NCBI RefSeq assembly: GCF_000733935.1
Contig: NZ_JPON01000001.1
Span: 930,001 to 994,000, forward strand
DNA from: Methylomarinum vadi
Lineage (GTDB): Bacteria; Pseudomonadota; Gammaproteobacteria; Methylococcales; Methylomonadaceae
Direction: 5' to 3'
Length of the DNA stretch: 64,000 bases
Numbering within the stretch: the stretch's first letter is position 1; the number at the start of each line of letters is the position of its first letter. Positions 13,184 through 41,845 of this stretch are shown one piece after another. A program made the translations under genes and the position numbers. The notes below the pieces were generated by a model. It was not told the origin of the DNA. It made no database searches and saw only the letters and a list, made by a program, of their open reading frames with translations.

Positions 13184-13295
13184 AGCGATACTAGTATTAA
13201 CCGTAATTGATACTTGCACATGACATGTCGGCGTCTGGTGCCACCGGCCAATGAATGCGTCAAGTGCCCGATCGCGCCTTCTTTCCGGCCCTCTC

Positions 13296-13302
13296 CCTAA
13301 GG
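13296..13302. repeat. Target site duplication, left copy (CCTAAGG)
   Basis: CCTAAGG here is repeated at 15045-15051, exactly flanking the inverted ends of the IS1182-type element. The sequence is nearly palindromic, as is usual for targets of this family. Confidence 0.75.
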
Positions 13303-15044
13303 AGGCTGTCGTAAAAGCCCCCCAACCAGCTACATACGGTAAAATAACCCTATCCAAACCTATTAGAAATAGATCAATGGCAGCCGAAGTAAACATTAGA
13401 CCCGTCAGGACATTGTATAGCGCCAAGCAATATTCGCTATTCGATGAATGCGAGGTTGAACCGTTACCTGAGTTGATCGCTCAATCGATCTCGAGCGAAC
13501 CGATGGCCCATTTTGAAGCGCCCGACCCGCGCGGCTTATCGATCAACGGTAAACCGCTCGGCGAACATCTGGAGCACGCCGGCTTAACCATCCCGTTGAA
13601 ATTGCGCCCCTTCCTGCAATCGCTATCCTTCGCCGAGTTCGAAGCCCGTTATCGGCCCGGCGGGCGTCCGCCGTATGCGCCACGTGCGATGGTGGGGATT
13701 ATTCTCTACGGCCTGTTACAAGGCATCAGCAGCCTGCGCGACTTGGAGCGTTTAGCTCGAGCCGATGTGGGGTGTTGGTGGCTAAGTGGCGGTATCATGC
13801 CGGATCACTCAGTCATTGGCCGTTTCGTCCATCAGCATGCCGAATCATTGACGACCGAATTTTTCGATCAACTGGCGCGTCGTACTTTGAAAGTCACAGG
13901 CTCAGGCACGACGACGTTGGCGGGCGACGGTACCGTGATCGAAGCCATGTCCTCCCGGTTTCAATTGATGAAGGAAGAAGCGCTCAAGCAAGCCTTGGCG
14001 CAAGCGCAGGAAGCCGCGCAAGCCAAACCCGACGATGCAGCGGCAAGCAAGCGGTTGAACCTATTGGAACAAGCCCAAGCCGAGCTAAAGTCTCGCCAGC
14101 AAAAACAAGCCGCCAAAGGCAAAGATCCGGCCAAGACCCAAGTACAAAGCAACGAGCCGGAGGCGGTATTACAGCCGCAAAAGAACTCCAAAGACTTTCG
14201 CGGCAGTTATAAACCGTCGGTATTGGCGAACGACAATCGAGTGATCGTGGCTTGCGACGTTCATCCTTCCAGCGAAACCGAGGTGGTGCCGGGCTTACTG
14301 GATCGCGCCCAAGCCATGGGAGGCGTCGAAACAGCTCTGTTCGATGCTGGCTATTTCAGCAATGGCGTCTTGGATACTGCTGAGCAACACAACATCGAAT
14401 TGCTTTGTCCGGAAGGCCAAAGTGAAGGAGACGATTGGAACAAACAATCCAACAAACAAATCCCCAAAAGCCGCTTTATTTATCAGGCCGACGACGACAC
14501 CTATCGCTGTCCGGGGCAACAACGCTTGACTCGCCGTCACACCTGCAAAGGCGGTAAAAGTGGCCGCGCTTATACCGTCTACGCCTGCGATGCCTGTTCA
14601 GACTGCCCGCTGAAATCCCAATGCACGCGTAGCGAGAGTGGTCGCACCCTCAAACGCTATGACAGCGATACACAAAAAGAAGCCCTGCGCCTGAAAATGG
14701 ACCAGCCCGAACCTCGGCAACGCTATCGACAGCGGCAGGCCATGGTGGAGCCCGTCTTCAGTCAGCTACGCGGTCGCCAAGGTTTGAATCGCTTTCGCCG
14801 TAAAGGTTTGGCGGGTGTCAAAGTAGAGTTCGCCTTGCACGCCATGGCTTACAATCTGAGCCGCGCCTTAGTGGCAGCTCTTTTTCGTGCTTTATATCAT
14901 TGGCTTAGCCGGTTTATGAGCTCGTTTGACCGAATGGTCGACATTTGGCTGAGTTACACTACTGACTTGCCAACTTCGCCGACCGTGGAAAATACGGCCG
15001 GTTTCCAGTGGTAAATCAAAGAAATTGGGGTTTTACGACGCCCT
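13303..15044 (+). mobile_element. IS1182-family insertion sequence, complete
   Basis: The element is 1,742 bases long. Its left end reads AGGCTGTCGTAAAAGCCCC and the reverse complement of its right end reads AGGGCGTCGTAAAACCCC, so the terminal inverted repeats match apart from three positions. Both ends are flanked by CCTAAGG. It carries a single transposase gene with no visible disruption. It lies between the split permease and the nitric oxide reductase gene, 65 bases upstream of the latter's probable original start. Confidence 0.88.
13377..15014 (+). CDS. IS1182-family transposase
   Basis: A 545-residue DDE transposase. The N-terminal domain has FEARYRPGGRPPYAPRAM and YGLLQGISSLRDLERL, typical of IS1182. 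TTLAGDGTVIEAMSSR holds the first catalytic Asp, and LFDAGYFSNG the second. A zinc-finger-like CDACSDCPLKSQC follows near residue 445, and AMVEPVFSQLRGRQGLNRFRRKG holds the catalytic Glu. A Gln/Lys/Ala-rich helical insert occupies about residues 200-275. I start at the ATG at 13377; an upstream in-frame ATG at 13251 lies outside the element's inverted repeat and cannot be native. The reading frame is intact, so the copy may be active. Confidence 0.92.
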   Translation: MAAEVNIRPVRTLYSAKQYSLFDECEVEPLPELIAQSISSEPMAHFEAPDPRGLSINGKPLGEHLEHAGLTIPLKLRPFLQSLSFAEFEARYRPGGRPPYAPRAMVGIILYGLLQGISSLRDLERLARADVGCWWLSGGIMPDHSVIGRFVHQHAESLTTEFFDQLARRTLKVTGSGTTTLAGDGTVIEAMSSRFQLMKEEALKQALAQAQEAAQAKPDDAAASKRLNLLEQAQAELKSRQQKQAAKGKDPAKTQVQSNEPEAVLQPQKNSKDFRGSYKPSVLANDNRVIVACDVHPSSETEVVPGLLDRAQAMGGVETALFDAGYFSNGVLDTAEQHNIELLCPEGQSEGDDWNKQSNKQIPKSRFIYQADDDTYRCPGQQRLTRRHTCKGGKSGRAYTVYACDACSDCPLKSQCTRSESGRTLKRYDSDTQKEALRLKMDQPEPRQRYRQRQAMVEPVFSQLRGRQGLNRFRRKGLAGVKVEFALHAMAYNLSRALVAALFRALYHWLSRFMSSFDRMVDIWLSYTTDLPTSPTVENTAGFQW

Positions 15045-15108: not shown

Positions 15109-15175
15109 ATGAGTGTTGCCGCACAACCCTTAACTGCCGAGGATTCCGCTCTGTCCTTGGTGGCTGCGCACGGTG
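15109..15175 (+). other. Out-of-frame original N-terminus of the nitric oxide reductase
   Basis: An ATG at 15109 with GGGAGA seven bases upstream opens a frame that reads a plausible cytosolic N-terminus (MSVAAQPLTAEDSALS) but runs out of the reductase frame. Shifting by one base around 15155-15158 (TCCTTGG) joins it to WWLRT and then to the reductase's first membrane helix. The distance 15109-17401 is a multiple of three plus one, as expected for one extra base. In the reductase frame itself an in-frame stop lies at 15131. Confidence 0.7.
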
Positions 15176-17401
15176 CTGATCGTGATGGTTCTGGGCTTTG
15201 CCGTCCTAATCCTCATTACGTTTCTGGCCTACCGTCACGCGCCCCCAATTCCGTCCCAGGTTGTCGATGAACAAGGGAAACGCCTGTTTAGCGCTGAGGA
15301 CATCGGCAAAGGCCAGGAAGTCTTTCTCAAATACGGATTGATGGATAACGGCAGTGTCTGGGGCCATGGCGCCTATCTGGGCCCCGATTATTCGGCCGAA
15401 GCGTTACACCGTATCGGCGAGCATACCGCTGCGGTAATCGCTCAGCGGCAATATAGGAAACCATTGGTGGCGCTGACACCAGAAAAACAAGCCGCGGTCT
15501 ATGCGCAAACAGCCATCGAACTAAAAACCAATCGTTACGATGCCGCCAGTGGGACATTACATCTGACGCCGCCGGCAACCGCCGCTTACCGCCAGGAAGC
15601 CAACTACTGGCGCGAGTACTTCCTCGACCCCGCGAGCAATGGCGGGCTCGAGCGCGGACTGATCAACAATCCTGTCGAATTGCAGCAGTTTACCGCTTTC
15701 GTCACATGGACTGCTTGGGCTGCAGTGACCAATCGTCCCGGCGAAACCCATTCCTATACCAACAACTTTCCCTACGACCCCAGCGTAGGCAATAGGGTGA
15801 CGCCTGACGCCGTGTTATGGAGCGCGCTGAGTCTAATCATGCTGCTAGCCGGTATCGCTACGGTACTGTTGATATTCGGTAAATTCGATTATCTCGGTTG
15901 GATTAGCACAGAAAAACATGTGCATCCCCATTTGTTGCCCAATCAAGCGAGCGCCGGCCAGCTCGCCCTCGTAAAGTTCTTCGTCGTGGTAATGCTACTG
16001 TTCCTGATGCAAACATTGCTAGGCGGTGCGACAGCTCACTATCGGGCGGCCCCCGATAGTTTTTACGGCTTCCAACTTGAGCGGATATTTCCCAGCAATC
16101 TGACGCGCACATGGCATCTGCAGACGGCGGTTTTTTGGATTGCAACCGCCTATATTGCGGCCGCGTTATTTCTCGGCCGTTCGCTGCGAACTGACGAACC
16201 GCGCTGGCTCGCCGGGTCGGTCCATTTATTGTTCGGCGCTTTCGTCATTGTCATCGCCGGCAGCCTGTTCGGCGAGTGGGCGGGGATCTCACAGTTGTTG
16301 GATCAGTGGTGGTTCTGGCTAGGCAACCAAGGGTGGGAGTACATGGAGCTTGGCCGTCTATGGCAGTATCTGCTTATAGGCGGTCTGTTGGTCTGGTTTG
16401 CGATCTTGTTGAAACTGATGGAATCCTCGGAGTTAACCGATCCTGCCGTGAAACCTCTGACTAGGATGTTCTTGTTCGCTTCCCTGGCGATTCCAATGTT
16501 CTATCTTCCGGCGCTTTTCTTCGGGGCCAAAACCAATTTCACAGTCGTCGATACCTGGCGATTCTGGATCATTCATTTATGGGTCGAAGGATTCTTTGAA
16601 TTTTTCGTCACCACAATGGTTGCGCTGATGTTCTATCAACTGGGTCTTACTCAACGCAACGTTGCATTAAGGGTGGTCTACTTGGATGCCATTTTGTATT
16701 TCGCCGGCGGCTTGATCGGAACCGGCCATCACTGGTATTTTACCGGACAAACCAGCTTCAACATGGCGATGTCATCGATGTTCTCGACACTAGAGGTGGT
16801 GCCGCTAACATTGTTGACCTTGGATGCGTGGGCATTCATCCGCACCACACGCGCCGACTGCGACACCTGCGGCAAGCCGGTAGCCGTGCCGCATAAGTGG
16901 ACTTTTTACTTCTTGATGTCGGTAGGCTTTTGGAACTTTGTGGGCGCAGGCATCTGCGGCTTCTTGATCAACTTGCCGGTCATTAGCTATTTCGAAGTCG
17001 GCACGCAGCTTACCCCCAACCACGGCCATGCCGCTATGATGGGGGTCTTTGGAATGTTGGCGCTGGCGTTGATGATATTCGTGGTGCGCCAGACCAGCAG
17101 TGACCCCCACTGGGCTGGCATAGAAAAATATGCCAAGGTCGGATTTTGGGGATGTAATGCCGGCCTGGCGCTTATGCTAAGTATGAGTTTGTTTCCCGGT
17201 GGCGTGTTGCAGGTCTGGGATGTGGCGCAGCATGGATACTGGCATGCACGCAGCCTTGAGTATACGGGAAGCGCCCGGTCTCGCCTGATCGAATGGTTAC
17301 GGCTTCCCGGAGACATGGTGTTCATTATATTCGGCGTCATACCGTTAGTGATTGTAGCCGTCAAAGGCTGGCTCATTGCCAATAAACAGACGGCCGAATG
17401 A
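15173..17401 (+). CDS. norB: Quinol-dependent nitric oxide reductase (qNOR)
   Basis: A 742-residue membrane protein of the qNOR (NorZ) type, which reduces two NO to N2O with quinol electrons. The periplasmic cytochrome c-like segment of qNOR is present (VFLKYGLMDNGSVWGHGAYLGPD) without a heme c motif, as expected. The heme-copper oxidase core has HLWVEGFFEFFVTTMVA with Glu residues near the FeB site, GGLIGTGHHWYFTG with the paired His, and LTPNHGHAAMMGVFGM with the heme ligands. The listed start is a GTG at 15173, the first available in frame. The natural start was probably the ATG at 15109, separated by a one-base shift, so the chain lacks about 21 residues ahead of the first helix. The DUF488 start overlaps its stop by four bases. 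Confidence 0.88.
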   Translation: MLIVMVLGFAVLILITFLAYRHAPPIPSQVVDEQGKRLFSAEDIGKGQEVFLKYGLMDNGSVWGHGAYLGPDYSAEALHRIGEHTAAVIAQRQYRKPLVALTPEKQAAVYAQTAIELKTNRYDAASGTLHLTPPATAAYRQEANYWREYFLDPASNGGLERGLINNPVELQQFTAFVTWTAWAAVTNRPGETHSYTNNFPYDPSVGNRVTPDAVLWSALSLIMLLAGIATVLLIFGKFDYLGWISTEKHVHPHLLPNQASAGQLALVKFFVVVMLLFLMQTLLGGATAHYRAAPDSFYGFQLERIFPSNLTRTWHLQTAVFWIATAYIAAALFLGRSLRTDEPRWLAGSVHLLFGAFVIVIAGSLFGEWAGISQLLDQWWFWLGNQGWEYMELGRLWQYLLIGGLLVWFAILLKLMESSELTDPAVKPLTRMFLFASLAIPMFYLPALFFGAKTNFTVVDTWRFWIIHLWVEGFFEFFVTTMVALMFYQLGLTQRNVALRVVYLDAILYFAGGLIGTGHHWYFTGQTSFNMAMSSMFSTLEVVPLTLLTLDAWAFIRTTRADCDTCGKPVAVPHKWTFYFLMSVGFWNFVGAGICGFLINLPVISYFEVGTQLTPNHGHAAMMGVFGMLALALMIFVVRQTSSDPHWAGIEKYAKVGFWGCNAGLALMLSMSLFPGGVLQVWDVAQHGYWHARSLEYTGSARSRLIEWLRLPGDMVFIIFGVIPLVIVAVKGWLIANKQTAE

Positions 17402-30180: not shown

Positions 30181-31257
30181 TCATACAATCGTTATTTTTG
30201 TCCTTGCCGTCCCCCAGGTTTCACCGGTTACCCAATCATTGATATCCATCTCGATGATGTATTCACCCGGATCGGTCGCTTCGACGATCAAGTCATAACG
30301 CTCGCCGGAAATGCCTCTGAACGACTCGACCGGCACGGGGTTGGGCAACGGCCGACCGTCCGAGGCGATGATATTGGCGGTCAATCCGCCCAGGTGGATT
30401 TCCTGGGGATGATAGCCCGCGCAAATATAGCGAATCAGCAATGTTTGACCGACTTGCACCGTGGCAGCGATGCCGGGCGCCGTCAATGCAGACTGAGCCC
30501 CATCGACGCCGGTGATAATAAAATAATCCGGCTCCAGTAAATTCAGGCCGGCGTCGCCGCCGCAGGTTCCAGCAGCCCACGATTTACTGTGCCAACTGGA
30601 GTCGATCTCATCGACCGCCCAGATCACCTCGACATCGTAAATCGGGCCATTAGCGAATGGCCGCTTGGTGCCGGGAGGATCATTGGGATCAGGCAACGGG
30701 TCGACGATCAGCGCGCCATACATGCCCATTTCCGCATGCAACACGGTATTGGTATGACAATGATAAAAATAAGTGCCGGGATGCGCCGGCTTCCATTGAT
30801 AGGTATAGCTGCCGTCGACATCCCAGGTGATATGGCCGACGCCGTCATTCTCCATGCTCGGTTCGATGCCGTGATGATGGATCGTATGCAGCCACATCAT
30901 GCCGTTGACACTCAGGTTAGTATGGACGATTTGACCTTCGAAGACACGGATTGGCGGCGAAGGGAAATTGCCGTTTCCGCCCATCATGCCGTCGCCGCCC
31001 ATGCCGCCACCGCCCATGCCTCCGCCACCGTCGCTAAAGCCCCAGATGGTGATGCTGCGGCCGTCATCCATCGTGATCGAGCCATTCATATAAATTCCGC
31101 GGTTGTAGATCACGTCGGGCGTCGTTAAACCGGGCGTCGAAGGCGAGGCCGGATAAGTGTAGCAGGCGCTGCCCATCATGCCACCGCCTCCGCCGCCCAT
31201 GCCGCCACCGCCTCCACCTCGCATGCCCATCAACAGCGGTTCTTTAAGCTTAAACAT
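30181..31257 (-). CDS. Multicopper oxidase domain protein with Gly/Met-rich N-terminus
   Basis: A 358-residue protein. The first 100 residues are unusual: two Gly/Met-rich blocks (about residues 12-30 and 77-97) and no signal peptide. A cupredoxin domain follows with LHTIHHHG (residues 123-130) and GTYFYHCHTNTVLHAEMGMYG near residue 165, which supply His pairs plus a Cys and downstream His/Met suited to type 1 and trinuclear copper. A second cupredoxin-like part has CAGYHPQEIHLGG near residue 280. AAGGAGGAG lies about seven bases upstream. It starts 14 bases after the Tat-exported multicopper oxidase, so it may be carried out with it. Substrate unknown; Cu(I) oxidation is a guess from the neighbours. 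Confidence 0.82.
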   Translation of the reverse strand: MFKLKEPLLMGMRGGGGGGMGGGGGGMMGSACYTYPASPSTPGLTTPDVIYNRGIYMNGSITMDDGRSITIWGFSDGGGGMGGGGMGGDGMMGGNGNFPSPPIRVFEGQIVHTNLSVNGMMWLHTIHHHGIEPSMENDGVGHITWDVDGSYTYQWKPAHPGTYFYHCHTNTVLHAEMGMYGALIVDPLPDPNDPPGTKRPFANGPIYDVEVIWAVDEIDSSWHSKSWAAGTCGGDAGLNLLEPDYFIITGVDGAQSALTAPGIAATVQVGQTLLIRYICAGYHPQEIHLGGLTANIIASDGRPLPNPVPVESFRGISGERYDLIVEATDPGEYIIEMDINDWVTGETWGTARTKITIV

Positions 31258-31271
31258 CGTATTCTCCTCCT

Positions 31272-32273
31272 TTATTCAAAATAAATATCGGTCATCGCGC
31301 CGAACATATAGGAACCGCCGGCGGCCGTTTGTGACATCTCGGTATGCAGATGCATCGGAAACGCGCCGGTCGACACAGGCGGATAGGCATCGGGGGGTGT
31401 TTCGAACGGGAAGATGCTGTCTATGGATCCCATATCGCCTTCCAGATACAAACAATCCTTTTTCCAAACGTCGGGACGGATCACACCGTTTTCGGTAAGC
31501 CATTCCATATGGTTGGCGTGCGCATGGACGGACTGGTCCGCTTTGCCGACATTGAACATGCGGATCAACGTCCGGTCGCCAATATGGCCATGCAAGGCGG
31601 AACGAGGGTCGGTTAATGAACCGATATTCGGATCATGGGCGCCTGGCGCGCCGGGCGGCCTTCCGCTCAGACCGTTCAACGTGAAATAGCGCGGTATGTA
31701 TTGGGTGCTCGGCGTATAGCCTCTACGTATCCGATCATGCCAGACTGGATCAATATCATTAAAAATCCAGAAATACTGTTGCACGAATTGCGGGCTGCCG
31801 GCATACAACTCGTTGTTGCTTCCCTGAGGCATCACGGCAAAGCCGCCGTGCAGGCCGACCAAGCGGTTATAAGGGGCATTGAGTTTGTCATAGAATAGGA
31901 AAGATCCGACCTTATTGGCCGTGAAAGAGAGGTTGGCGCTCCTCCCTCCCCTGATCGTTCCGGAATCGACCAAGCCATCGATGACGAAACTATGCGAGGT
32001 CGACAGGGTATTGACGACGGTGATGTTGACCGTGTCGCCTTCCTGAACGATCAGCGACTCGCCCGGAACGTTCAAAGAGCCGCTGCTGTTGCTGAAGCCG
32101 CGAAAATAGACATCGGTCCCATCGGGCTGTTCGATATAACCGGCGGTGATATAGTAGGTCTTGTTGATCGTTGCGGCAGACGCGCGTGGCGTCCAGGACA
32201 GCAGGCCGGCGCCTCCCATTGCGGAGGCGGCGACCCCGGCCGCGCTGACCCGCAGAAAATCTCTTCTTTTCAT
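31272..32273 (-). CDS. Tat-exported multicopper oxidase domain protein
   Basis: A 333-residue protein. The N-terminus is a twin-arginine signal (KRRDFLRVSAAGVAASA, cleavage near ASAAT). Cupredoxin-like segments follow. At the place where a multicopper oxidase normally has HxH, this protein reads SHSFVIDG and LFYDKLNAPYN, so some ligands are missing. Near the C-terminus are VHAHANHMEW (about residue 240) and FPMHLHTEMSQ (about residue 310), where the Cys of the usual HCH motif is Leu. It therefore has His clusters but not an obvious type 1 copper Cys, which the downstream partner does have. The two genes lie 14 bases apart. Confidence 0.82.
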   Translation of the reverse strand: MKRRDFLRVSAAGVAASAMGGAGLLSWTPRASAATINKTYYITAGYIEQPDGTDVYFRGFSNSSGSLNVPGESLIVQEGDTVNITVVNTLSTSHSFVIDGLVDSGTIRGGRSANLSFTANKVGSFLFYDKLNAPYNRLVGLHGGFAVMPQGSNNELYAGSPQFVQQYFWIFNDIDPVWHDRIRRGYTPSTQYIPRYFTLNGLSGRPPGAPGAHDPNIGSLTDPRSALHGHIGDRTLIRMFNVGKADQSVHAHANHMEWLTENGVIRPDVWKKDCLYLEGDMGSIDSIFPFETPPDAYPPVSTGAFPMHLHTEMSQTAAGGSYMFGAMTDIYFE

Positions 32274-32396: not shown

Positions 32397-32977
32397 TTTG
32401 ACTAAACAACCACCCGCTCAAGCGGGTGGGTTCCAATAACGGACTGAAAGTCCGGATACGCGTCGACTAAACGACGCGTCTTAGTCGGGCTCCATCTTGA
32501 AATTATCGTTTGGATTAGGTTCAAAGTGATGCTCCAAATATTGCTTTATCATCTCATCAGTCATTTGCCCCACTGTGGCGCAAAAATAACCGCGGGCTCA
32601 AAAATGTCGACCCCAATATCGCTTTTTCAAGTGCGGGAACTCTTCGAACAGATAGCTCGAAGTTCGTCCCTTGATTCGCCTCATGATTTCGCTTGGGGCC
32701 ATAGTCGGCGGCGCACTCACCAAAATGTGCACATGATCTTTGCTCACGACACCTTTGATAATCCGTATCTCAAAGGCTTCGCATGTCTGCCGCACCAAGT
32801 CTCTCACTCGTTCGGCTATTTCATCCTTCAGCACTTTATAACGATACTTCGTAACCCAAACAAAATGATACTCAATTTGGTAAACCGTATGGCTGCCGTA
32901 TCTATAGTCCATCGCCACCTCCTTGGGCAAATTATCGCAGCTAAAGCTGACCGGCTAAAGCCGGTGGTTTAAACCTT
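32397..32977 (-). mobile_element. IS200/IS605-type element, inactive
   Basis: The element carries one Y1 transposase and subterminal hairpins typical of this family. At its left side are CCACCCGC-TCAA-GCGGGTGG (32410-32429), a GGACT...AGTCC hairpin and ACGCGTCG-ACTAAA-CGACGCGT (32458-32479). At its right side ACCGGC-TAAA-GCCGGT lies at 32950-32965. Ends are estimated from these hairpins. It sits about 125 bases upstream of the multicopper oxidase genes. Confidence 0.75.
32481..32912 (-). pseudogene. tnpA: IS200/IS605 transposase TnpA with premature stop
   Basis: The full frame would give 143 residues. It starts at the ATG at 32912, with AAGGAGGTG just upstream. FVWVTKYRYKVL and the HUH motif DHVHILVSAPP are present. 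After RYWGRHF a TGA (32598-32600) stands where the family has a Trp codon. The same frame then continues ARGYFCATVGQMTDEMIKQYLEHH to a TAA at 32481. The catalytic Tyr of Y1 transposases is in this last segment, so the truncated 104-residue product should be inactive. Confidence 0.82.
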
Positions 32978-34229: not shown

Positions 34230-34258
34230 TTGACAGGGTAAATTAGCCTAGGTATTAT
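34230..34258 (+). promoter_or_regulatory. Sigma-70 promoter of the oxidase operon
   Basis: TTGACA at 34230-34235 is a perfect -35 box. After exactly 17 bases comes TATTAT at 34253-34258, a five-of-six -10 box. Transcription would start near 34265 and give a leader of about 65 bases before the first gene at 34332. Confidence 0.7.
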
Positions 34259-34331
34259 CAGAGTTCGCTTATTCTTCAACCCCTAAGCCCGCACCTTTTC
34301 CAATAACAACAATAATCCCGGAGATTCTCCC

Positions 34332-34484
34332 ATGAAACAGATCAGCGATGAGGAACGGAAAAAGATTCTGGAAAGCCCCCCTATCGGAACCCTGGCATTA
34401 ATGCTGGTGGTTGGCGCGAGCATGGTTGCTGCTTGGTTATTTCTTTACTACGGGGTTTTCTCGCCTCGCGGCATTATCAACTAG
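34332..34484 (+). CDS. Small membrane subunit of the cytochrome oxidase
   Basis: A 50-residue protein. A charged N-terminus (MKQISDEERKKILESPP) precedes a single membrane helix and a short tail. Small single-helix subunits of this type (subunit IIa-like) accompany ba3-type oxidases, where they complete the membrane part of subunit II. GGAGA is nine bases upstream of the ATG. Subunit II starts 10 bases after the stop. It is the first gene after the strong promoter. Confidence 0.72.
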   Translation: MKQISDEERKKILESPPIGTLALMLVVGASMVAAWLFLYYGVFSPRGIIN

Positions 34485-34494
34485 GGGGCAAGAC

Positions 34495-35025
34495 ATGCAT
34501 ATCGATCCGTTAGAAAGTAAATGGATACAGACCGCCCTAGGCATCTGCGGTCTGTTTGTCGGCCTCATTCTGATTGATGCCTTTTTTCATAATATCCACA
34601 CGCCCAGCAACGTCGAAACCATCGACTCCGCCAGTCTGCATCTGAGCGAGGAATTCGCCGAGGACAATCTGGGCGTGCACCGTGATGAAAACGGCAATAT
34701 TATCGTGCGTATGGTCGCCGGACGTTATTCCTTTTTTCCCAAAGAAATCAGCGTCCCTGCTGAAACCAAATTGACCTTCCGTTGGGTCAGCATTGATGTC
34801 TTGCATGGCGTGCATATACCGATGACAAACATGAGCACGATGGTCGTACCCGGTTTCGTCGCCGAGTTGGAAACCACCTTTCCGAAACCCGGGGATTATC
34901 CCGTGTTATGCAATGAATATTGCGGGCTCGGCCATGATCACATGTGGAGCAAAATCAATGTCGTAGAAAGGGACCAATGGCACGCGACTCAACAACCTAG
35001 CAGCGGGGCGATCGACAATGAATAA
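34495..35025 (+). CDS. Cytochrome c oxidase subunit II (ba3-like, CuA)
   Basis: A 176-residue protein with one N-terminal helix (about residues 10-32) and a periplasmic cupredoxin domain. The CuA motif is complete: a His in SIDVLHGVHIPM and CNEYCGLGHDHM (CxxxCxxxHxxM) near residue 145. CuA means that it takes electrons from a cytochrome c or similar donor and not from quinol. The single helix and short size match ba3-type oxidases. It overlaps the subunit I start by eight bases. Confidence 0.9.
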   Translation: MHIDPLESKWIQTALGICGLFVGLILIDAFFHNIHTPSNVETIDSASLHLSEEFAEDNLGVHRDENGNIIVRMVAGRYSFFPKEISVPAETKLTFRWVSIDVLHGVHIPMTNMSTMVVPGFVAELETTFPKPGDYPVLCNEYCGLGHDHMWSKINVVERDQWHATQQPSSGAIDNE

Positions 35026-36643
35026 TGTTATTGAAAGAAAACTGGCGCTGAGCCATATGTCGGTAGCCTTCACGGCCTTTATCCTTGCCTGTTTCCTGGG
35101 CGAATATCAGGTCTTCGAACGTAGCGGCTTAATTGAGTCGTTGGGTTCGCCAACGGTATATTTCGCCTCGGTCAGTACCCACGGCGTATTGATGGCCTAT
35201 GTGTTGACCACCTTCTTCATCATGGGCTTCGGCTATTACACCGCCGCCACCTCGCTCGAAACCCCCGTTTGGAAGCCCGAGCTAGCCTGGACGGGCTTCG
35301 GATTATCCCTATTTGGTGTGTTGCTGGCCGCTTTGCCTTTACTATCAGGCAAAGCCTCGGTGCTCTACACCTTTTACCCGCCGGTCCAGGCGCATCACTT
35401 TTTTTATCTCGGCGCGACCCTGCTGATCGTCGGTTCATGGGTCTGGTGCGCGATCATGGTCGTGATGTTCTATCAATGGAAGAAGGCCAATCCCGAACAA
35501 CCGGTCCCGCTAGCGATGTTCGCAACGACGGCGAATGCGCTCCTTTGGCTGTGGACCAGCGCCGGCGTCGCGTTGGAAGCAGTGTTTTTATTGATACCCT
35601 GGTCGCTTGGCTGGACCGACACGGTCGACCCCGGCCTGGCCCGCACGCTGTTCGCCTGGACCTTACATCCGATCGTCTATTTCTGGCTGATTCCGGCCTA
35701 TACGGCCTATTATGTGTTCGTCCCCAAGCAAGCCGGCTCCTATCTGTTTAGCGACGAGGTCGCGCGCGCCGCCATCATCGTTTTAGTGGTATTCAGCCTC
35801 CCGATCGGTTTTCATCATCTCTATATGGACCCGGAACAGGCCAAGGGCTGGAAAATCCTGCACGGCATCGGCACCTTCATCGTCACGCTGCCGACCTTCG
35901 TCACCGGCTTCACCGTGATCGCCTCGCTGGAAATAGCCGGCCGCCTGCGCGGCGGTAAAGGGATGTTCGGCTGGATCGGCAGCCTGCCGTGGAACAATAC
36001 AATGGTGCTGGCGGTGATATTGTCGTTGCTGATGTTGATCTTCGGCGGCTTCGGCGGCATCGTCAACGCCAGTTATGCGATGAACGCGATGGTGCACAAC
36101 ACCGCTTGGGTGCCAGGCCATTTCCATCTGATTTTCGCCGGCACCTCGGTGATCATGTATTTCGCCATCGCCTATTATTTGTGGCCGATTCTGAGCAAAA
36201 AGCCGCTGTTTTCGAACAATCTGGCCTTGCTGCAACTATGGACCTGGTTCATCGGCATGACTATCCTGACCACGCCCTGGCATGTATTGGGATTGTTGGG
36301 GCAGCCGCGCCGCATTTCCAGCGTCGTTTATAACAACCTGCTGACCTTGTCCTGGAAACCCTATGAACTGGCGATGATCGCCGGCGGCCTGATCATGCTC
36401 AGTTCGGCCTGTCTGTTCGTTTACCTGCTGTACAAGACCCAGTTCGCCAAGTCGGAAGAAACCTACGCCGCCGAAGTCGAATATGCAGAACCCTTGCATG
36501 CGGTGAAATCGTTACCGGAGTACCTGAACGACTTCAAATTATGGAACAAGGTCATTGCCATCTACATGGCCGTCAGTTTCGGCATTCCTATCCTGCAATT
36601 CTTCTTTCTCGACACTTTCGATTCAAGCGCCTGGAGTTACTGA
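35018..36643 (+). CDS. Cytochrome c oxidase subunit I (b(o/a)3 type)
   Basis: A 541-residue heme-copper oxidase with about 13 hydrophobic helices. Heme and CuB ligands are visible: VSTHGVLMAYV (low-spin heme), LHPIVYFWLIPAYTAYY (CuB His plus the Tyr helix), GFHHLYMDP (two CuB His) and VPGHFHLIFAG (heme ligands). The HPIVY variant of HPEVY lacks the Glu of A-type enzymes, as in B-family (ba3) oxidases. It reduces O2 to water and pumps protons. It overlaps subunit II by eight bases; the diheme cytochrome starts two bases after its stop. No subunit III is present, usual for this class. Confidence 0.92.
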   Translation: MNNVIERKLALSHMSVAFTAFILACFLGEYQVFERSGLIESLGSPTVYFASVSTHGVLMAYVLTTFFIMGFGYYTAATSLETPVWKPELAWTGFGLSLFGVLLAALPLLSGKASVLYTFYPPVQAHHFFYLGATLLIVGSWVWCAIMVVMFYQWKKANPEQPVPLAMFATTANALLWLWTSAGVALEAVFLLIPWSLGWTDTVDPGLARTLFAWTLHPIVYFWLIPAYTAYYVFVPKQAGSYLFSDEVARAAIIVLVVFSLPIGFHHLYMDPEQAKGWKILHGIGTFIVTLPTFVTGFTVIASLEIAGRLRGGKGMFGWIGSLPWNNTMVLAVILSLLMLIFGGFGGIVNASYAMNAMVHNTAWVPGHFHLIFAGTSVIMYFAIAYYLWPILSKKPLFSNNLALLQLWTWFIGMTILTTPWHVLGLLGQPRRISSVVYNNLLTLSWKPYELAMIAGGLIMLSSACLFVYLLYKTQFAKSEETYAAEVEYAEPLHAVKSLPEYLNDFKLWNKVIAIYMAVSFGIPILQFFFLDTFDSSAWSY

Positions 36644-36645
36644 AC

Positions 36646-37293
36646 ATGAAACGCATAGTCGCTTTACTATTAGCAATCGTTCCCGCTCTAGCCGTCGCGG
36701 AACCCTCTTCCAATATTGCCTGGACGCCCGAATTGCTCGAGTTCGTCGGCAACGGAGATGCCGAAAACGGACAACAACTGGCGCAAACCTGCGCCGGCTG
36801 CCATGGCGACAAAGGCGTCAGCCCGATGGAGGGCTATCCTTCATTGGCCGGGCAATTGGCGACCTATACCTATAAACAACTGCGCGATTATGCCGACGGC
36901 AAGCGCAGCCACATGTTGATGAATTCGATTGCCCAAGGCTTGTCGGAAAAGGATTCCGCCGACATAGCGGCGTGGTTCGCGACCTTGCCGCCGGCCAAGG
37001 GCCAACGCAGTAAAGAACCGCTGAAAAAAGCCGAAGTGTTGGTCACTCGGGGCAACGGCAAGAAAATCATCCCCTCCTGTTTCGTCTGCCACGGCAGCAA
37101 CGGCCAAGGAGAAAAACAGGATATTCCGGCATTATCCGGTCAGCAGCCGGGTTATTTCATCAATACCCTGAACGAATACAAGACCGGTGTCCGCCATAAC
37201 GATATCTATAGTCGCATGCGGCTGATCGCGCAGCAATTGAGCGAAGAAGATATCAAGCAATTGGCGCAATATTATTATCAAATGAGGAGGTAA
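36646..37293 (+). CDS. Diheme cytochrome c (c4-like)
   Basis: A 215-residue periplasmic protein with a Sec signal (cleavage near AVAEP). It has two class I cytochrome domains with heme motifs CAGCHGDKG (about residue 49) and CFVCHGSNG (about residue 142), each followed by a Met-containing segment (YPSLAGQ...MLMNS, IPALSGQ...SRMRL). This matches cytochrome c4, a common donor to CuA oxidases. It is placed directly after subunit I. It most likely delivers electrons to the ba3-like oxidase, possibly from the seven-heme protein next to it. Confidence 0.88.
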   Translation: MKRIVALLLAIVPALAVAEPSSNIAWTPELLEFVGNGDAENGQQLAQTCAGCHGDKGVSPMEGYPSLAGQLATYTYKQLRDYADGKRSHMLMNSIAQGLSEKDSADIAAWFATLPPAKGQRSKEPLKKAEVLVTRGNGKKIIPSCFVCHGSNGQGEKQDIPALSGQQPGYFINTLNEYKTGVRHNDIYSRMRLIAQQLSEEDIKQLAQYYYQMRR

Positions 37294-37299
37294 CACCGC

Positions 37300-39732
37300 A
37301 TGAAGAACATTACCGTCCCGTTGCTGTTGATCGGCCTACTGGCCGGCCCGGCATTTGCCCGAATCATCCCCTATCAGGCGCCGACTGACGACCCGCTGAT
37401 CAGAAACAATCCGATCGAAAAACCCGTCGCCGATAATACCCGTAAACCGAAAAACGATTACAACATCACGATCAATTACGAGCTGGGCATGCACTGCACC
37501 GGCTTCGACTTTTCCTATTGTTGTATTTTGCCACCTTATAATTCGATACAGAGCCAAGTCGTCAAGACGGCCACCGCCCCTTACACCTTTCCGCAATTAT
37601 TGAAAGCCGACCCGAACGACCCCACCGTGCTGGTGGACGGCGATAAACGCATGAAGCTGGAATACGGCCACATCGACAATACCTTTTCCGAAGGCACGAA
37701 GCTGGCCTATTGGAATATTCCTTACGATGTCAACAAGGACGGCAAATACAGTAAGAACGAAAATGTCGGCAACGCCTATTTCACCCACCTCTACATCTAC
37801 AAGGATCTGAAAGGCAGCAACCCGAAAAACACCAGTAAGGACAGCGAGAAACTGCGCATCGGCATTGAGCTGCCGATTCCCCGCGACGCCGGCCCTTCCG
37901 GCCAGCCGCTAAAAAACGGCCATCTGCATTACACCGGTGATACCGGCACCATCGTCTACACCAAGTCTCCGGTATTGGACAACGTACCGATCGTGCTGAC
38001 CAATCCCGGCATCTGGGATGCCCTGGGCCTGCCGTTGACGCCGTTCTATGACGAGCTGATGAAGAAAAGCCCCCTGGAAATCGTCGAAAGCGATATCCGC
38101 CCTTATCAGGAGGCCTGGGTCGGCCTGGTAGACGCCGACAGCGGCAAGCCGGTGATCGACAGCCATAGCGGCAAGCCGGTCCGTTTCATCGGCACCAACC
38201 CGATCGACGTGCCCAACTGCGCCAACTGCCATGCCAACGAGAACGCCAACGGCGACAAATTCACTCTGTACAAACAAGAAAAAGCGTTCTGGAAAAGCCT
38301 CGGCGCTTCCGATTACATGGCCGATTTGAAAGCGACCTCGATCTCGATTCTGCAGATTCACGACGCCCGCCACGGTACGCAATTTCTGGCCAAATACGAC
38401 CCCAGCAGCCGAGCGACGCAAAACCGTTTGGGCAACGATCCGGTTTTGTGCCAGCAATGCCATGCCGACAACGTCATCGGCGTGTTGGAGTCGAAAGGCG
38501 TCGCCCAAGTTTTGAGCGGCAGCAAAACCCGCGAGTCCTGGGATACCCCGATCGTGGCCCTGTCTCAGGCACTGCACCGGGTCCATCAAACCATGCGACC
38601 GCTGCCCGATTCCGAAGGCCGTACCGGTACCTGTGCCGGCTGCCATCCCGCCCACCGTCAGGACGGCTCGATGGACGGTTATCCAATCACGCCTGACGGC
38701 AAGAACTTCTATGCCGAGGCCGATAACCGCGACAGCAAGGGCGGCTGCTTCGCCGGGCGCGACGTACATTCCAATCCGAATAAGGAAAACGATGGCGTCG
38801 GCACACCGGAACACCTCAATGCCGTCGGTCAATGGCTACAGGCCAATGTCTCGAAGATCGGCAACGACCAGGGCGGCAAAGGCATGTGGTGCACCAATTG
38901 TCATAACCAGCTGTCGCGGGAACTGTATCAACGCGACAATCTGGAAAATGCCTTCAAACAAACCGGCACGACGATCCGTAACCAGTCTCTGGACGAAATT
39001 GCCAAGGCCATCGGTGTCGATCGCAAGACGCTGGAGCAAAAATATCTTGACCCCAAAGTCATCGCCGATAAGGACGGCCATGATAGCCCCAATAAATCCG
39101 GGATTTTGTTGACCTGGTCCAAGGAGCGCATGGCACCCGATATCGGCGTGATCGCGATGCAAGAAGACAAGCCGTTGATCCGCAAAGACGAAGACGGCGA
39201 CGTCAACGTCGCGCTGTTGTCGGCCAATCCATCTACCAAGCTGGCATCACTGCAGCTGCCCGAAGGCGCCACTGGCGTGGCCGCGGTCTCGTATGACGCC
39301 GCCAGCCATGGTCGCGATTACTGGTTGGCGGCCGGCGAACCGCACTGCGCCGATTGTCATGCGCCACCTTATGTAGAAGGACAAGGCGGCGTCGCCTTCC
39401 CGATCAACCAGCCGGGTAAATATAGCCTGATGCGCTACTCGAAAGGTCACGCCGGCCTGGCATGCCAGGCCTGTCATGAGTCGATCCATGGGCTGTATCC
39501 GGTCAGGCCGATCGTCGACACCACCACCTATAAGCAGGCCACGCAATACAATCCGGACGGCAGTCACGGCCCGTTGTTGTGCGCATCCTGCCATGAAGTC
39601 AACGAATCCGGGGTGCCGATCGTCGCCGAAGGGCTGACGTGGGAAGGCAAGAAAATCAAGGATGACCTCGACGCGGCGATCAGCTGGATACACGGAAACG
39701 CGCATGATTTGGGAGGAAAAAATCGCAAATAA
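37300..39732 (+). CDS. Seven-heme c-type cytochrome
   Basis: An 810-residue exported protein (signal peptide ending near AFARI). Seven CxxCH motifs lie at about residues 307, 384, 445, 531, 683, 722 and 761 (CANCH, CQQCH, CAGCH, CTNCH, CADCH, CQACH, CASCH). The first 300 residues have no heme motif but have three Cys at 66, 74 and 75 in a conserved-looking GMHCTGFDFSYCC block. I know of no function for this architecture. Position six bases after the diheme cytochrome suggests one operon and that the protein passes electrons to the c4-like protein and oxidase. It could be an electron donor, an electron store or a catalytic oxidoreductase. Confidence 0.9.
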   Translation: MKNITVPLLLIGLLAGPAFARIIPYQAPTDDPLIRNNPIEKPVADNTRKPKNDYNITINYELGMHCTGFDFSYCCILPPYNSIQSQVVKTATAPYTFPQLLKADPNDPTVLVDGDKRMKLEYGHIDNTFSEGTKLAYWNIPYDVNKDGKYSKNENVGNAYFTHLYIYKDLKGSNPKNTSKDSEKLRIGIELPIPRDAGPSGQPLKNGHLHYTGDTGTIVYTKSPVLDNVPIVLTNPGIWDALGLPLTPFYDELMKKSPLEIVESDIRPYQEAWVGLVDADSGKPVIDSHSGKPVRFIGTNPIDVPNCANCHANENANGDKFTLYKQEKAFWKSLGASDYMADLKATSISILQIHDARHGTQFLAKYDPSSRATQNRLGNDPVLCQQCHADNVIGVLESKGVAQVLSGSKTRESWDTPIVALSQALHRVHQTMRPLPDSEGRTGTCAGCHPAHRQDGSMDGYPITPDGKNFYAEADNRDSKGGCFAGRDVHSNPNKENDGVGTPEHLNAVGQWLQANVSKIGNDQGGKGMWCTNCHNQLSRELYQRDNLENAFKQTGTTIRNQSLDEIAKAIGVDRKTLEQKYLDPKVIADKDGHDSPNKSGILLTWSKERMAPDIGVIAMQEDKPLIRKDEDGDVNVALLSANPSTKLASLQLPEGATGVAAVSYDAASHGRDYWLAAGEPHCADCHAPPYVEGQGGVAFPINQPGKYSLMRYSKGHAGLACQACHESIHGLYPVRPIVDTTTYKQATQYNPDGSHGPLLCASCHEVNESGVPIVAEGLTWEGKKIKDDLDAAISWIHGNAHDLGGKNRK

Positions 39733-39751
39733 CCCCACCTCCTTGCCGTAT

Positions 39752-39777
39752 CGTTCCCACGCTCCTGCGTGGGAACG
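39752..39777. repeat. Strong hairpin of a dispersed-repeat type after the seven-heme gene
   Basis: CGTTCCCACGC-TCCT-GCGTGGGAACG is a perfect 11-bp stem with a four-base loop, 19 bases after the stop. I recall similar sequences as common extragenic repeats in gammaproteobacteria. No T tract follows, so it is more likely a repeat or mRNA stabiliser than a classical terminator. Confidence 0.65.
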
Positions 39778-39858
39778 CAATCTGCATCCCCTCTTCGTGA
39801 GGCGACGCGAGCGGTGTGGCAACGATAATGAGATAACAATTGCTCACTTTATATCTTT

Positions 39859-41100
39859 ATGAAGAAACGTTTGTCTTACATACTGTTAAGCGCTTTTTTA
39901 CTACCTGCCCAAGCCAACCAGGTGCTAGTCACGATCGGTGATTCCGGCCGGGTTACCGAGCAAGAATTGGAAGCGGCAATGCTCGCGGCGCCTTTCGCCA
40001 CGCAGTTTCCAGCAATGGACGAGCAAGACCAGGCTTATTTACGCGGCGACATGCTGCTACGGCTTGCCCGTGCGGAAGCGTTGTATCAGGAAGCGATTGC
40101 TTCCGACATTCAACAAACCCCTCAGTTCAAACAGGAAATCGGCAATTTCTCCACAACCACCCTGGCCCAGCGTTATCTTTACCGATTGCGCCGGCAAATC
40201 ACGGTTCCCGACGATGTCGACCAACTATTCAAAGAGGAGTTTAGCGGCAACGGCGATGCGCTGACCGCTGCCCGCTCGGCCTACCTCGCCCGCCGTTTTT
40301 CCGAAGCCAAGCAAGTCGCCCTAAAAAGTTTACGCGAACAGGCGAATGTGCGAACCCATTTCGAGCGACTGAACGGCCAACCGTCAAAAGACAGTTTGTT
40401 GGCCGAGGGCGATGCTCTCTCGATACGCTATGGCGATTTATTCGCAAATAATGACCGCGAAATCGAGCTCGACGCCATTGAGGACGAAGTCAATGAATGG
40501 ATCGATCTGATGCTGATGGCCCGGACGGCCCAGCAACAGGGAGAAAACATCGCTGCGCAATTGGCCGAATACGGCCACGATCTGGCGATACGCCTCCTGC
40601 TGGCGCAGCAAGAACAAAACTGGATTCCGGATGAACAAACTCTGTTCGACTATTTTCAACGCCATCCCGATATCGGCTATATTCCGGAACGTAGGCAAAT
40701 CGGTCAGATCGTAGTCGCTACTAAGCAACAGGCCGAACAACTCCGCGCCCGCATCGTCGCCGGCGAAAGCTTGTTCGAGCTGGCCGGCAGTTACAGCATC
40801 GACCCTTACGGCCGCCAACGCCTGGGCGACATGGGTTGGTTAAGCGCGGGCAGCGCCGCGCCGGAAATCGAACAAGCCATCGACGGTCTGCCCAACGATC
40901 GAGTCAGCGAACCGATTCAAACCGAAAAAGGCTGGCACTTGGTCATGATCGTCGATCGCAAACCGTCTGTGCGCAAAAATTTCGCCGCGATCAAGGACCG
41001 GGTCAGGCAAAAATTTGTCGCGGAAAAAATGAGCGAGTATTTACGCGAGGTGACAAAAAAATATCCGTTGAAATGGCAGATCGCCGAGCGGGATGAATGA
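39859..41100 (+). CDS. SurA-like peptidylprolyl isomerase
   Basis: A 413-residue exported protein (signal ending near AQANQ). The N-terminal 200 residues are helical and SurA/PpiD-like. Residues 280-375 are a parvulin domain with RRQIGQIVVATKQQAEQL, DPYGRQRLGDMGWL and PIQTEKGWHLVMIVDRK. The canonical HIL start of the domain is GQIVV here, so activity is uncertain. It follows the seven-heme gene after a hairpin and may be a dedicated folding factor for those cytochromes. It is 126 bases downstream on the same strand. Confidence 0.82.
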   Translation: MKKRLSYILLSAFLLPAQANQVLVTIGDSGRVTEQELEAAMLAAPFATQFPAMDEQDQAYLRGDMLLRLARAEALYQEAIASDIQQTPQFKQEIGNFSTTTLAQRYLYRLRRQITVPDDVDQLFKEEFSGNGDALTAARSAYLARRFSEAKQVALKSLREQANVRTHFERLNGQPSKDSLLAEGDALSIRYGDLFANNDREIELDAIEDEVNEWIDLMLMARTAQQQGENIAAQLAEYGHDLAIRLLLAQQEQNWIPDEQTLFDYFQRHPDIGYIPERRQIGQIVVATKQQAEQLRARIVAGESLFELAGSYSIDPYGRQRLGDMGWLSAGSAAPEIEQAIDGLPNDRVSEPIQTEKGWHLVMIVDRKPSVRKNFAAIKDRVRQKFVAEKMSEYLREVTKKYPLKWQIAERDE

Positions 41101-41221: not shown

Positions 41222-41758
41222 CTACCGCAACAACGGCTCTACGATAGTGGCGAACGCTTCCTTGCGGAAGATGCCCTGCTGCATGTACACAAGATGGCCG
41301 TCGCGGCCGATGACCACGGTGAACGGCAAGACGCCGAAGGAATTGCCCCACTGTTTCAGCAATTCGTATTGCGATTCGGGATCGGCCTGCAAGATCGGAT
41401 AATTGATGCCGACCGTGCGGACAAAATTGCGCAGCTTACGAGTTTCGTCGAGACCGACACCGATGACCAGCAACCCTTGGTCCGCGTAACGGGCCTGGTA
41501 ATCGATAAAGTCCGGAATTTCAAGTTGACAGGGACCGCACCAGGTGGCCCAGAAGTTAAGAAGAATAACCTGACCATGCCAGTCGTACAGGTTATGTCTT
41601 TGACCATCGAGATCATCAAGAATCAAGGGCGGCAATTCCCAGGCATTGCTGATGCGTTTTCCGTGGCGGGAATTGTCGGTTGCCAGGGCCATTGCGCTCG
41701 CTAACCAGAGCAACGCAACTATAATCAGTCGATAGGTGATTTTAAACGGCTTGTTCAT
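41222..41758 (-). CDS. TlpA-family thiol:disulfide oxidoreductase
   Basis: A 178-residue exported thioredoxin-like protein. The signal peptide ends near AMALA. The active site is FWATWCGPCQLEIP near residue 75, and the cis-Pro segment is FGVLPFTVVIGRDGH near residue 145. TlpA/ResA-type proteins act in the periplasm on cytochrome c or CuA maturation, which suits the cytochrome-rich neighbourhood; this link is inferred. The ATG at 41758 begins the signal; a longer in-frame start at 41815 adds unrelated residues. It is divergent from the TolC-type efflux operon. Confidence 0.87.
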   Translation of the reverse strand: MNKPFKITYRLIIVALLWLASAMALATDNSRHGKRISNAWELPPLILDDLDGQRHNLYDWHGQVILLNFWATWCGPCQLEIPDFIDYQARYADQGLLVIGVGLDETRKLRNFVRTVGINYPILQADPESQYELLKQWGNSFGVLPFTVVIGRDGHLVYMQQGIFRKEAFATIVEPLLR

Positions 41759-41845
41759 AGGATTTTTGCTTACTGTCGTTAAACACGGATTGAAATTAGT
41801 ATACAATATTAACATTCTCTAAAATACCAGGACCGGCTAGCTCCC

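Follow-up and report, generated by a model that had tools for sequence, protein, structure and literature searches.

A conserved heptaheme cytochrome module behind a ba3-type oxidase operon of Methylomarinum vadi, with a possible role in reduced-sulfur oxidation

The stretch of DNA considered here, referred to as the window, comprises 64,000 nucleotides of the complete 4.34 Mb genome of Methylomarinum vadi (contig NZ_JPON01000001.1, positions 930,001 to 994,000), and our subject is an operon in which the genes of a ba3-type oxidase are followed by those of a cytochrome c4 and of a large multiheme cytochrome that we call MHC7. Specifically, on the forward strand and in window coordinates, a 50-residue CoxIIa-like small subunit (34332-34484) is followed by oxidase subunit II with its CuA domain (34495-35025), the ba3-type (B-family) subunit I (35018-36643), a diheme cytochrome c4 (36646-37293) and the 810-residue MHC7 (37300-39732). 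After a further 126 bases comes a peptidyl-prolyl isomerase (PPIase) of the PpiC/SurA type (39859-41100; Pfam Rotamase, E 7.9e-17), and a TlpA/ResA-like thioredoxin gene (41222-41815; Pfam AhpC-TSA, E 5.2e-20) lies on the reverse strand, convergent with that of the PPIase. The order of the first five genes had been proposed in a first-pass annotation of this DNA and agrees with the reading frames, as does its range of spacings from an eight-base overlap to 10 bases: a 10-base gap separates the small subunit from subunit II, subunits II and I overlap by 8 bases, and 2 and 6 bases separate subunit I from c4 and c4 from MHC7, respectively. A palindromic element that is single-copy in the window and resembles a dispersed repeat was also observed between the MHC7 and PPIase genes (39752-39777).

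Judged by sequence, the oxidase is assigned to the ba3 (B-family) type on two counts, namely that the top PDB matches of subunit I (Pfam COX1, E 4e-88) are to the T. thermophilus ba3 enzyme (E 2.3e-110), far ahead of A-family oxidases, and that the CuA motif C-x3-C-x3-H-x2-M can be read directly in subunit II (Pfam COX2, 30.8 bits, cut-off 22). The adjacent gene is similarly predicted to encode a cytochrome c4, as it combines two CxxCH motifs with a match to cytochrome c4 in the PDB (E 1.9e-29). The small subunit scores under the cut-off of Pfam CoxIIa (E 0.067; 13.5 bits, cut-off 20.7), and a relative occupies the same place in all 30 oxidase loci fetched for comparison, our own included. With respect to transcription, the near-consensus promoter previously said to drive the operon is present as a site (TTGACA-17-TATTAT, 34230-34258, forward strand) with 11 of 12 consensus matches, and the scanned region holds 12 promoter-like sites as compared with 6.5 (sd 2.6) in shuffled sequence. 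Because the placement of the best such site upstream of the operon varies in 26 other loci, its function as the operon promoter is only plausible, and the idea of a conserved promoter element was rejected.

MHC7 has a calculated mass of 88.6 kDa before processing and exactly seven CxxCH motifs (residues 307, 384, 445, 531, 683, 722 and 761), with the motif count standing here for hemes; among window frames of more than 80 residues, it alone has more than two. Residues 1-306 contain no CxxCH, and the remaining cysteines lie at positions 66, 74, 75 and 483, which bears out the earlier description of a heme-free N-terminus of about 300 residues with a Cys cluster. Pfam returned multiheme fragments just above their cut-offs, including MtrC/MtrF domains II/IV (PF22113, 32.1 bits, cut-off 30), Cytochrome_C7 (30.4 bits) and Cytochrom_CIII (26.4 bits), an NCBIfam search gave nothing near any cut-off, and the PDB, searched with the MHC7 sequence as well as with a 50-sequence profile, held no convincing relative. 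Membership in a known enzyme family was rejected, as these matches are generic or due to chance. The first-pass annotation had allowed that the protein might belong to such a family with an established partner other than this oxidase; the profile search gave only generic multiheme domains and no relative by sequence in the PDB.

Relatives of MHC7 were sought in one genome per species across 84,980 species, which yielded 161 encoding stretches, the best 80 of which were used. Within these best 80, the hosts are Gammaproteobacteria, including Sedimenticola, Chromatiaceae, Thiotrichaceae and tubeworm symbionts, as well as Gallionellaceae, Sideroxydans, Rhodocyclaceae, Nitrospinota and a few other metagenome-assembled genomes; the methanotrophs include Methylobacter marinus A45, and the nearest named sequences come from metagenome-assembled genomes of Methylococcaceae, the kin of the window genome being Methylococcales. 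Viral contigs and plasmids, when searched, contained no relative of MHC7. In total, 84 MHC7 sequences were collected, and in the 82 that remained after two short ones were dropped all seven heme motifs are invariant, together with C66, C74, C483 and nine further histidines (65, 354, 426, 429, 452, 490, 682, 717 and 730). An alignment of 50 chosen sequences (A2), which also served for the MHC7 tree, has a mean column identity of 66%, and the heme-free domain is marked by an N-terminal motif, LGMHC...LPPYN. A cysteine serves as distal heme ligand in the sulfur cytochromes TsdA, SoxA and DsrJ. Taken together, the alignments and searches indicate that MHC7 is a very conserved heptaheme family matching no characterised enzyme.

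The PPIase accompanies MHC7 most constantly, joined outside Nitrospinota by the TlpA-like thioredoxin; neither was named at first pass, the PPIase lying inside the interval then described. In loci with at least 600 bases downstream, a PPIase gene stands immediately 3′ of MHC7 in 62 of 70 and anywhere in the locus in 64, and none was found in L108, L126, L127, L153, L154 and L161 (6/70). A TlpA-like gene lies within 6 kb of MHC7 in 38 of the 52 loci that have at least 2.5 kb downstream. In an order-level sample of 61 genomes (our own and 60 relatives), MHC7 is present in 15, counting G007, where the gene ends at a contig end, and G023 and G058, where it is split over two frames. Orthologs of the PPIase occur in 13 of these 15 genomes and in none of the other 46 (Fisher 1.6e-11, descent ignored), the two misses being G007 and G023, where MHC7 lies at or close to a contig end. 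TlpA orthologs (at least 55% identity) occur in 14 of the 15, G007 being the miss, and again in none of the 46 (Fisher 6.7e-13, descent likewise ignored). The best that the MHC7-negative genomes offer is a TlpA match of 44% identity and three SurA-like matches near 1e-16.

TlpA stands apart from MHC7 in G003, G004, G005, G023 and G038, and in the five genomes labelled f6 it stands behind the c4 gene of the oxidase. The tree of 30 oxidase sequences requires at least four changes in the presence of MHC7; of 4 independent pairs, an average of 3.8 show TlpA going the same way, a number of pairs too small for significance. The sister of the window genome on this tree, G002 of the same genus, lacks MHC7 and the PPIase and retains only a TlpA remnant in which 64 residues match, between flanks arranged as in the window, with the genes from small subunit to c4 on one side and TolC-MFP-RND on the other. 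MHC7, the PPIase and the TlpA-like thioredoxin are thus one co-inherited module, and in the open-licence literature of PubMed Central we found no paper describing it.

The module is set against an oxidase unit that has a wider distribution. Strong matches to the ba3 oxidase were found in 36 of the 61 genomes, from which the 30 loci used for the oxidase tree and the c4 count were fetched, and in 30 of 30 loci the small subunit, subunits II and I and c4 form a unit whether or not MHC7 is present. The order subunit I-c4-MHC7 occurs in eight of the 61 genomes (G000, G001, G003, G004, G007, G011, G023 and G033, our own among them) and is shared by four additional named records (L084, L086, L088 and L090), and it recurs beyond chance. 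Insertions interrupt this order in G005, G038 has a piece of c4 ahead of MHC7 at a contig end, and in the f6 genomes MHC7 lies about 4 kb away on the opposite strand (G052, G058) or is unlinked (G041, G047, G055). In terms of gene content, oxidase sequence is present in all 15 MHC7 genomes (broken in G005, a fragment in G038) as compared with 23 of the 46 others (Fisher 2e-4). In a Gigantopelta aegis symbiont (records L035/L087), the whole operon looks decayed, with subunit I in pieces, c4 split and MHC7 devoid of a start; another clustered frame, perhaps a transposase as judged by eye, lies inside subunit I and before MHC7.

A linkage of the same kind is found outside the methanotrophs, in Gammaproteobacteria other than Methylococcales, where L108 and L146 have the order II-I-c4-copper ATPase-MHC7 and L131, at a contig start, has the same from subunit I on; in L128, the oxidase and MHC7 units lie on opposite strands. 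Across the 52 loci mentioned above, an oxidase was counted in 11, two of the 13 matched (L091 and L099) being discounted as probable hits to the c4 part of a fused query, and on the 50-sequence MHC7 tree, which contains neither L131 nor L146, the label "ba3-linked" requires three changes. From the conserved order, the 15/15 against 23/46 distribution and the linkage outside methanotrophs, we therefore consider a functional tie between MHC7, c4 and ba3 likely, and not obligate. A strict dependence of MHC7 on a neighbouring oxidase was rejected, as the two are unlinked in three f6 genomes.

These data also bear on the possibility that the three-gene module is real and its oxidase neighbourhood incidental, a cassette having landed behind c4 in Methylococcaceae and using the operon promoter. 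Such an account would suit the oxidases that lack MHC7 (23/46 genomes), the constancy of c4 behind the oxidase, the f6 arrangements and the vacant site in G002, but it sits poorly with the I-c4-copper ATPase-MHC7 order in L108, L131 and L146 and with the presence of oxidase in every MHC7 genome, and we regard it as quite improbable. The earlier suggestion that a multiheme enzyme in line with its own terminal oxidase forms a dedicated periplasmic electron route is supported in part. Gene order, co-occurrence and the linkage beyond Methylococcales favour a route from MHC7 through c4 to ba3. The oxidase is not MHC7's own, because 23 of 46 MHC7-negative genomes have it and f6 MHC7 is unlinked or on the opposite strand; elsewhere MHC7 shares its locus with a NapC-type tetraheme cytochrome (18 of the 52 loci) or, in Nitrospinota, with dsr genes.

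With respect to the electron donor, the dsr linkage points to sulfur. MHC7 occurs in 10 of 24 Nitrospinota genomes, in three of which (G426, G442, G444) the full order dsrA-B-L-C-M-K-J-O-P-x-MHC7-PPIase was observed, and seven (these three and G427, G441, G443 and G445) have dsr genes at most about 10 kb from MHC7. For the remaining three, G446 has DsrE2, dsrA is 31 kb off in G450, and the contig ends in G452. DsrC, DsrK and DsrO in these loci score above their NCBIfam cut-offs and DsrJ and DsrP below; the labels DsrM and DsrL are presumed from position. A conserved protein of about 300 residues lies between dsrP and MHC7 in several Nitrospinota (L149:8769-9761 and relatives), and a Pfam search with its member in L153 gave nothing at E 0.01. 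Across 369 genomes sampled from the class, DsrA is present in 12 of 15 MHC7 genomes as opposed to 106 of 354 others (Fisher 1.3e-4, kinship ignored), the positives including G407 (a partial match, inside a longer frame) and G255 (one internal stop). Among 14 hand-picked genomes, DsrA exceeded the cut-off in 10, was partial in L158, weak in L144 and L088, and not found in L161; it is present in L108, L146 and L128. A flavoprotein of the sulfide-dehydrogenase/sulfide:quinone oxidoreductase (SQR) kind lies near MHC7 in L144 and L137, the NCBIfam type III SQR match of L144 being far under its cut-off, and the window genome encodes the flavoprotein of flavocytochrome c sulfide dehydrogenase (FCSD; L175). 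Many of the gammaproteobacterial hosts are named as or near sulfur oxidisers, a physiology that we presume from their names.

Building on these observations, our preferred reading, to which we assign a probability of about one half, is that MHC7 is an exported heptaheme carrier or enzyme of reduced-sulfur oxidation that feeds the electron carrier of its lineage, here c4 and ba3. For the substrate, left unnamed at first pass, sulfur is now the leading candidate. Several observations weigh against this reading. The window genome gave no match to DsrA or SoxB at the thresholds used, DsrA does not separate Nitrospinota with MHC7 (9/10) from those without (10/14), and 106 of the 118 DsrA genomes in the class sample lack MHC7. 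In that sample, the association with SoxB is weak (10/15 vs 141/354, p 0.037, kinship ignored). FCSD was found in 7 of 15 MHC7 genomes vs 9 of 46 others (p 0.045), and the five f6 genomes are all without it. Two PPIase-less loci, L108 and L127, carry the oxidase or copper-ATPase arrangement, no TlpA-like gene was found near MHC7 in the Nitrospinota loci, and the family includes Gallionellaceae, which are iron oxidisers. Finally, a 2024 survey groups most DsrAB of Nitrospinota with the oxidative type but cautions that their direction may not be readable from phylogeny alone (PMC10839748); the word "multiheme" is absent from its text.

In an alternative reading, MHC7 would sit in the outer membrane as a conduit, serving extracellular electron transfer or the oxidation of metal (Fe(II)); electrons from a mineral or metal would enter through it and pass to c4 and the oxidase, or by way of NapC to quinone. 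The MtrC/MtrF match noted above is in keeping with this, as are the Sideroxydans and Gallionellaceae members in which NapC adjoins MHC7 (L121, L122) and lipobox-like N-termini in 23 of 82 MHC7 proteins, a regular-expression count that includes some doubtful cases and misses others. Surface multiheme cytochromes have in addition been reported for M. capsulatus (PMC4831470). The lipoprotein-like starts are found in many MHC7 outside the methanotrophs, however, whereas the signal peptide of methanotroph MHC7 is plain and has no lipobox. An MtrC/OmcA-type decaheme system comprises ten hemes and a porin-cytochrome partner, whereas MHC7 has seven CxxCH and no porin appeared among the neighbour clusters identified, many neighbours being without identity. 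Sulfur is also indicated by the dsr linkage and by the induction under sulfide of a heptahaem protein in Methylacidiphilum fumariolicum SolV, described below, and we consider a conduit unlikely.

Alternatively, electrons might flow the other way, with MHC7 acting as a reductase or detoxification enzyme that uses c4 or NapC electrons to reduce sulfur, nitrogen or oxygen species and so protects the oxidase or the methane monooxygenase. Proteins of the NapC type commonly supply electrons to periplasmic reductases, the same partners would suit either direction of flow, and an octaheme protein lies near MHC7 in three Gammaproteobacteria (L128, L135 and L147), that of L128 (544-1983) showing a weak similarity to hydrazine dehydrogenase (NCBIfam 81.9 bits, far under cut-off). 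Flow towards oxygen is nonetheless the simpler account, because MHC7 directly follows the oxidase and its likely donor c4, and the oxidative grouping of most Nitrospinota DsrAB (PMC10839748) also speaks against a reductase, a role we find rather improbable.

Returning to MHC7 as a component of reduced-sulfur oxidation, the protein would be exported and act at the periplasmic face or the outer membrane, probably as a lipoprotein in many relatives outside the methanotrophs. Judging from the families to which they belong, the PPIase and thioredoxin would most likely assist its folding and heme attachment and control the state of its disulfides. Reduced sulfur would be the electron source, with sulfide, polysulfide or the periplasmic end of the Dsr system as the likeliest donor, and the electrons would leave through c4 and the ba3 oxidase in these methanotrophs, through NapC-type tetraheme and c4-like cytochromes in other Gammaproteobacteria, and through DsrMKJOP in Nitrospinota. 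In the window organism, the electrons of sulfide oxidation would in this way reach oxygen past sulfide-sensitive steps. A bolder version, which we offer tentatively and think somewhat unlikely, is that MHC7 is a plug-in periplasmic or outer-membrane sulfide or sulfane-sulfur oxidoreductase with its own folding helpers, attached in at least two phyla to DsrMKJOP (whose periplasmic side it would serve as an unrecognised redox partner), to NapC and quinone, or to c4 and a sulfide-tolerant ba3, and forming in methanotrophs a direct line from sulfide to oxygen. If true, it would keep methane oxidation running in sulfidic water. The locus bears on the sulfide tolerance of methanotrophs and the periplasmic partners of the Dsr and ba3 systems, in that it ties a conserved heptaheme family to both and identifies two helper genes whose occurrence follows that of MHC7. 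For testing, G002 provides a natural deletion and Methylobacter marinus A45 a named carrier strain.

Other features of the window were recorded alongside the operon. Upstream on the reverse strand (30184-32273) are two cupredoxin or multicopper-type proteins, one with a signal resembling that of twin-arginine translocation and a weak similarity to nitrosocyanin, and a short frame close upstream of the operon (32598-32930) is one that we take to be transposase-like. Further from the operon are a DDE transposase (13251-15011, by Pfam) and a NorB-like nitric oxide reductase with a cytochrome c-like domain (15173-17398).

In comparison with known systems, the oxidase and c4 genes form the same unit as an ordinary B-family ba3 oxidase with c4, and the window operon differs by the MHC7 module behind it. 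Among known proteins close to MHC7 are LGMHC-motif cytochromes of Methylococcales, which show homology to MHC7 over the N-terminal domain and the first three hemes (hhalign probability 99.9, E 4.8e-32, A2 against A3). Where complete, these proteins contain nine CxxCH rather than seven; H65, C66, C483 and six of the seven MHC7 heme sites are kept in the six compared, and four of their loci (L048-L051) contain no PPIase or TlpA relative at E 1e-12. They perhaps correspond to the cytochrome c553o group. MHC7 fits a multiheme superfamily with the working name LGMHC, defined by an N-terminal LGMHC...LPP domain followed by a CxxCH domain. The nine-CxxCH protein of the window organism itself (L051:5368-9495, at about 2.94 Mb) adjoins a diheme protein of 646 residues that has a RoxA-like cytochrome domain. 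Distant paralog clusters in two genomes, L046 (7209-15734, from G004) and L047 (6408-14451, from G047), again contain a PPIase and a TlpA-like gene, here with a 7-CxxCH paralog, which in L047 has a lipobox match, and a nine-CxxCH protein of 1180-1250 residues, the N-terminus of which is long and acidic in L047 and seemingly repeated in L046.

With MtrC, MtrF and OmcA, MHC7 has in common a generic multiheme domain, from which it departs in its number of CxxCH motifs, in another N-terminal domain and in having no sequence relative in the PDB. A parallel in physiology is provided by the verrucomicrobial methanotroph M. fumariolicum SolV, in which exposure to H2S is reported to have raised no gene more (15.7-fold) than that of an 89-kDa heptahaem protein with no assigned function, together with a rise of about 5-fold for the ba3 operon (PMC10205796). 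Its authors propose that the oxidase is sulfide-insensitive and that the heptahaem protein shuttles electrons towards ba3. This protein, MFUM_v2_1950, and MHC7 both have seven hemes, similar masses (89 vs 88.6 kDa) and methanotroph hosts, a comparison by mass and heme count only, and, by locus number (1950 vs 1257-1261), the SolV gene is not in one operon with ba3. By this analogy, the MHC7 locus may be the gammaproteobacterial counterpart of the sulfide-induced heptahaem of SolV.

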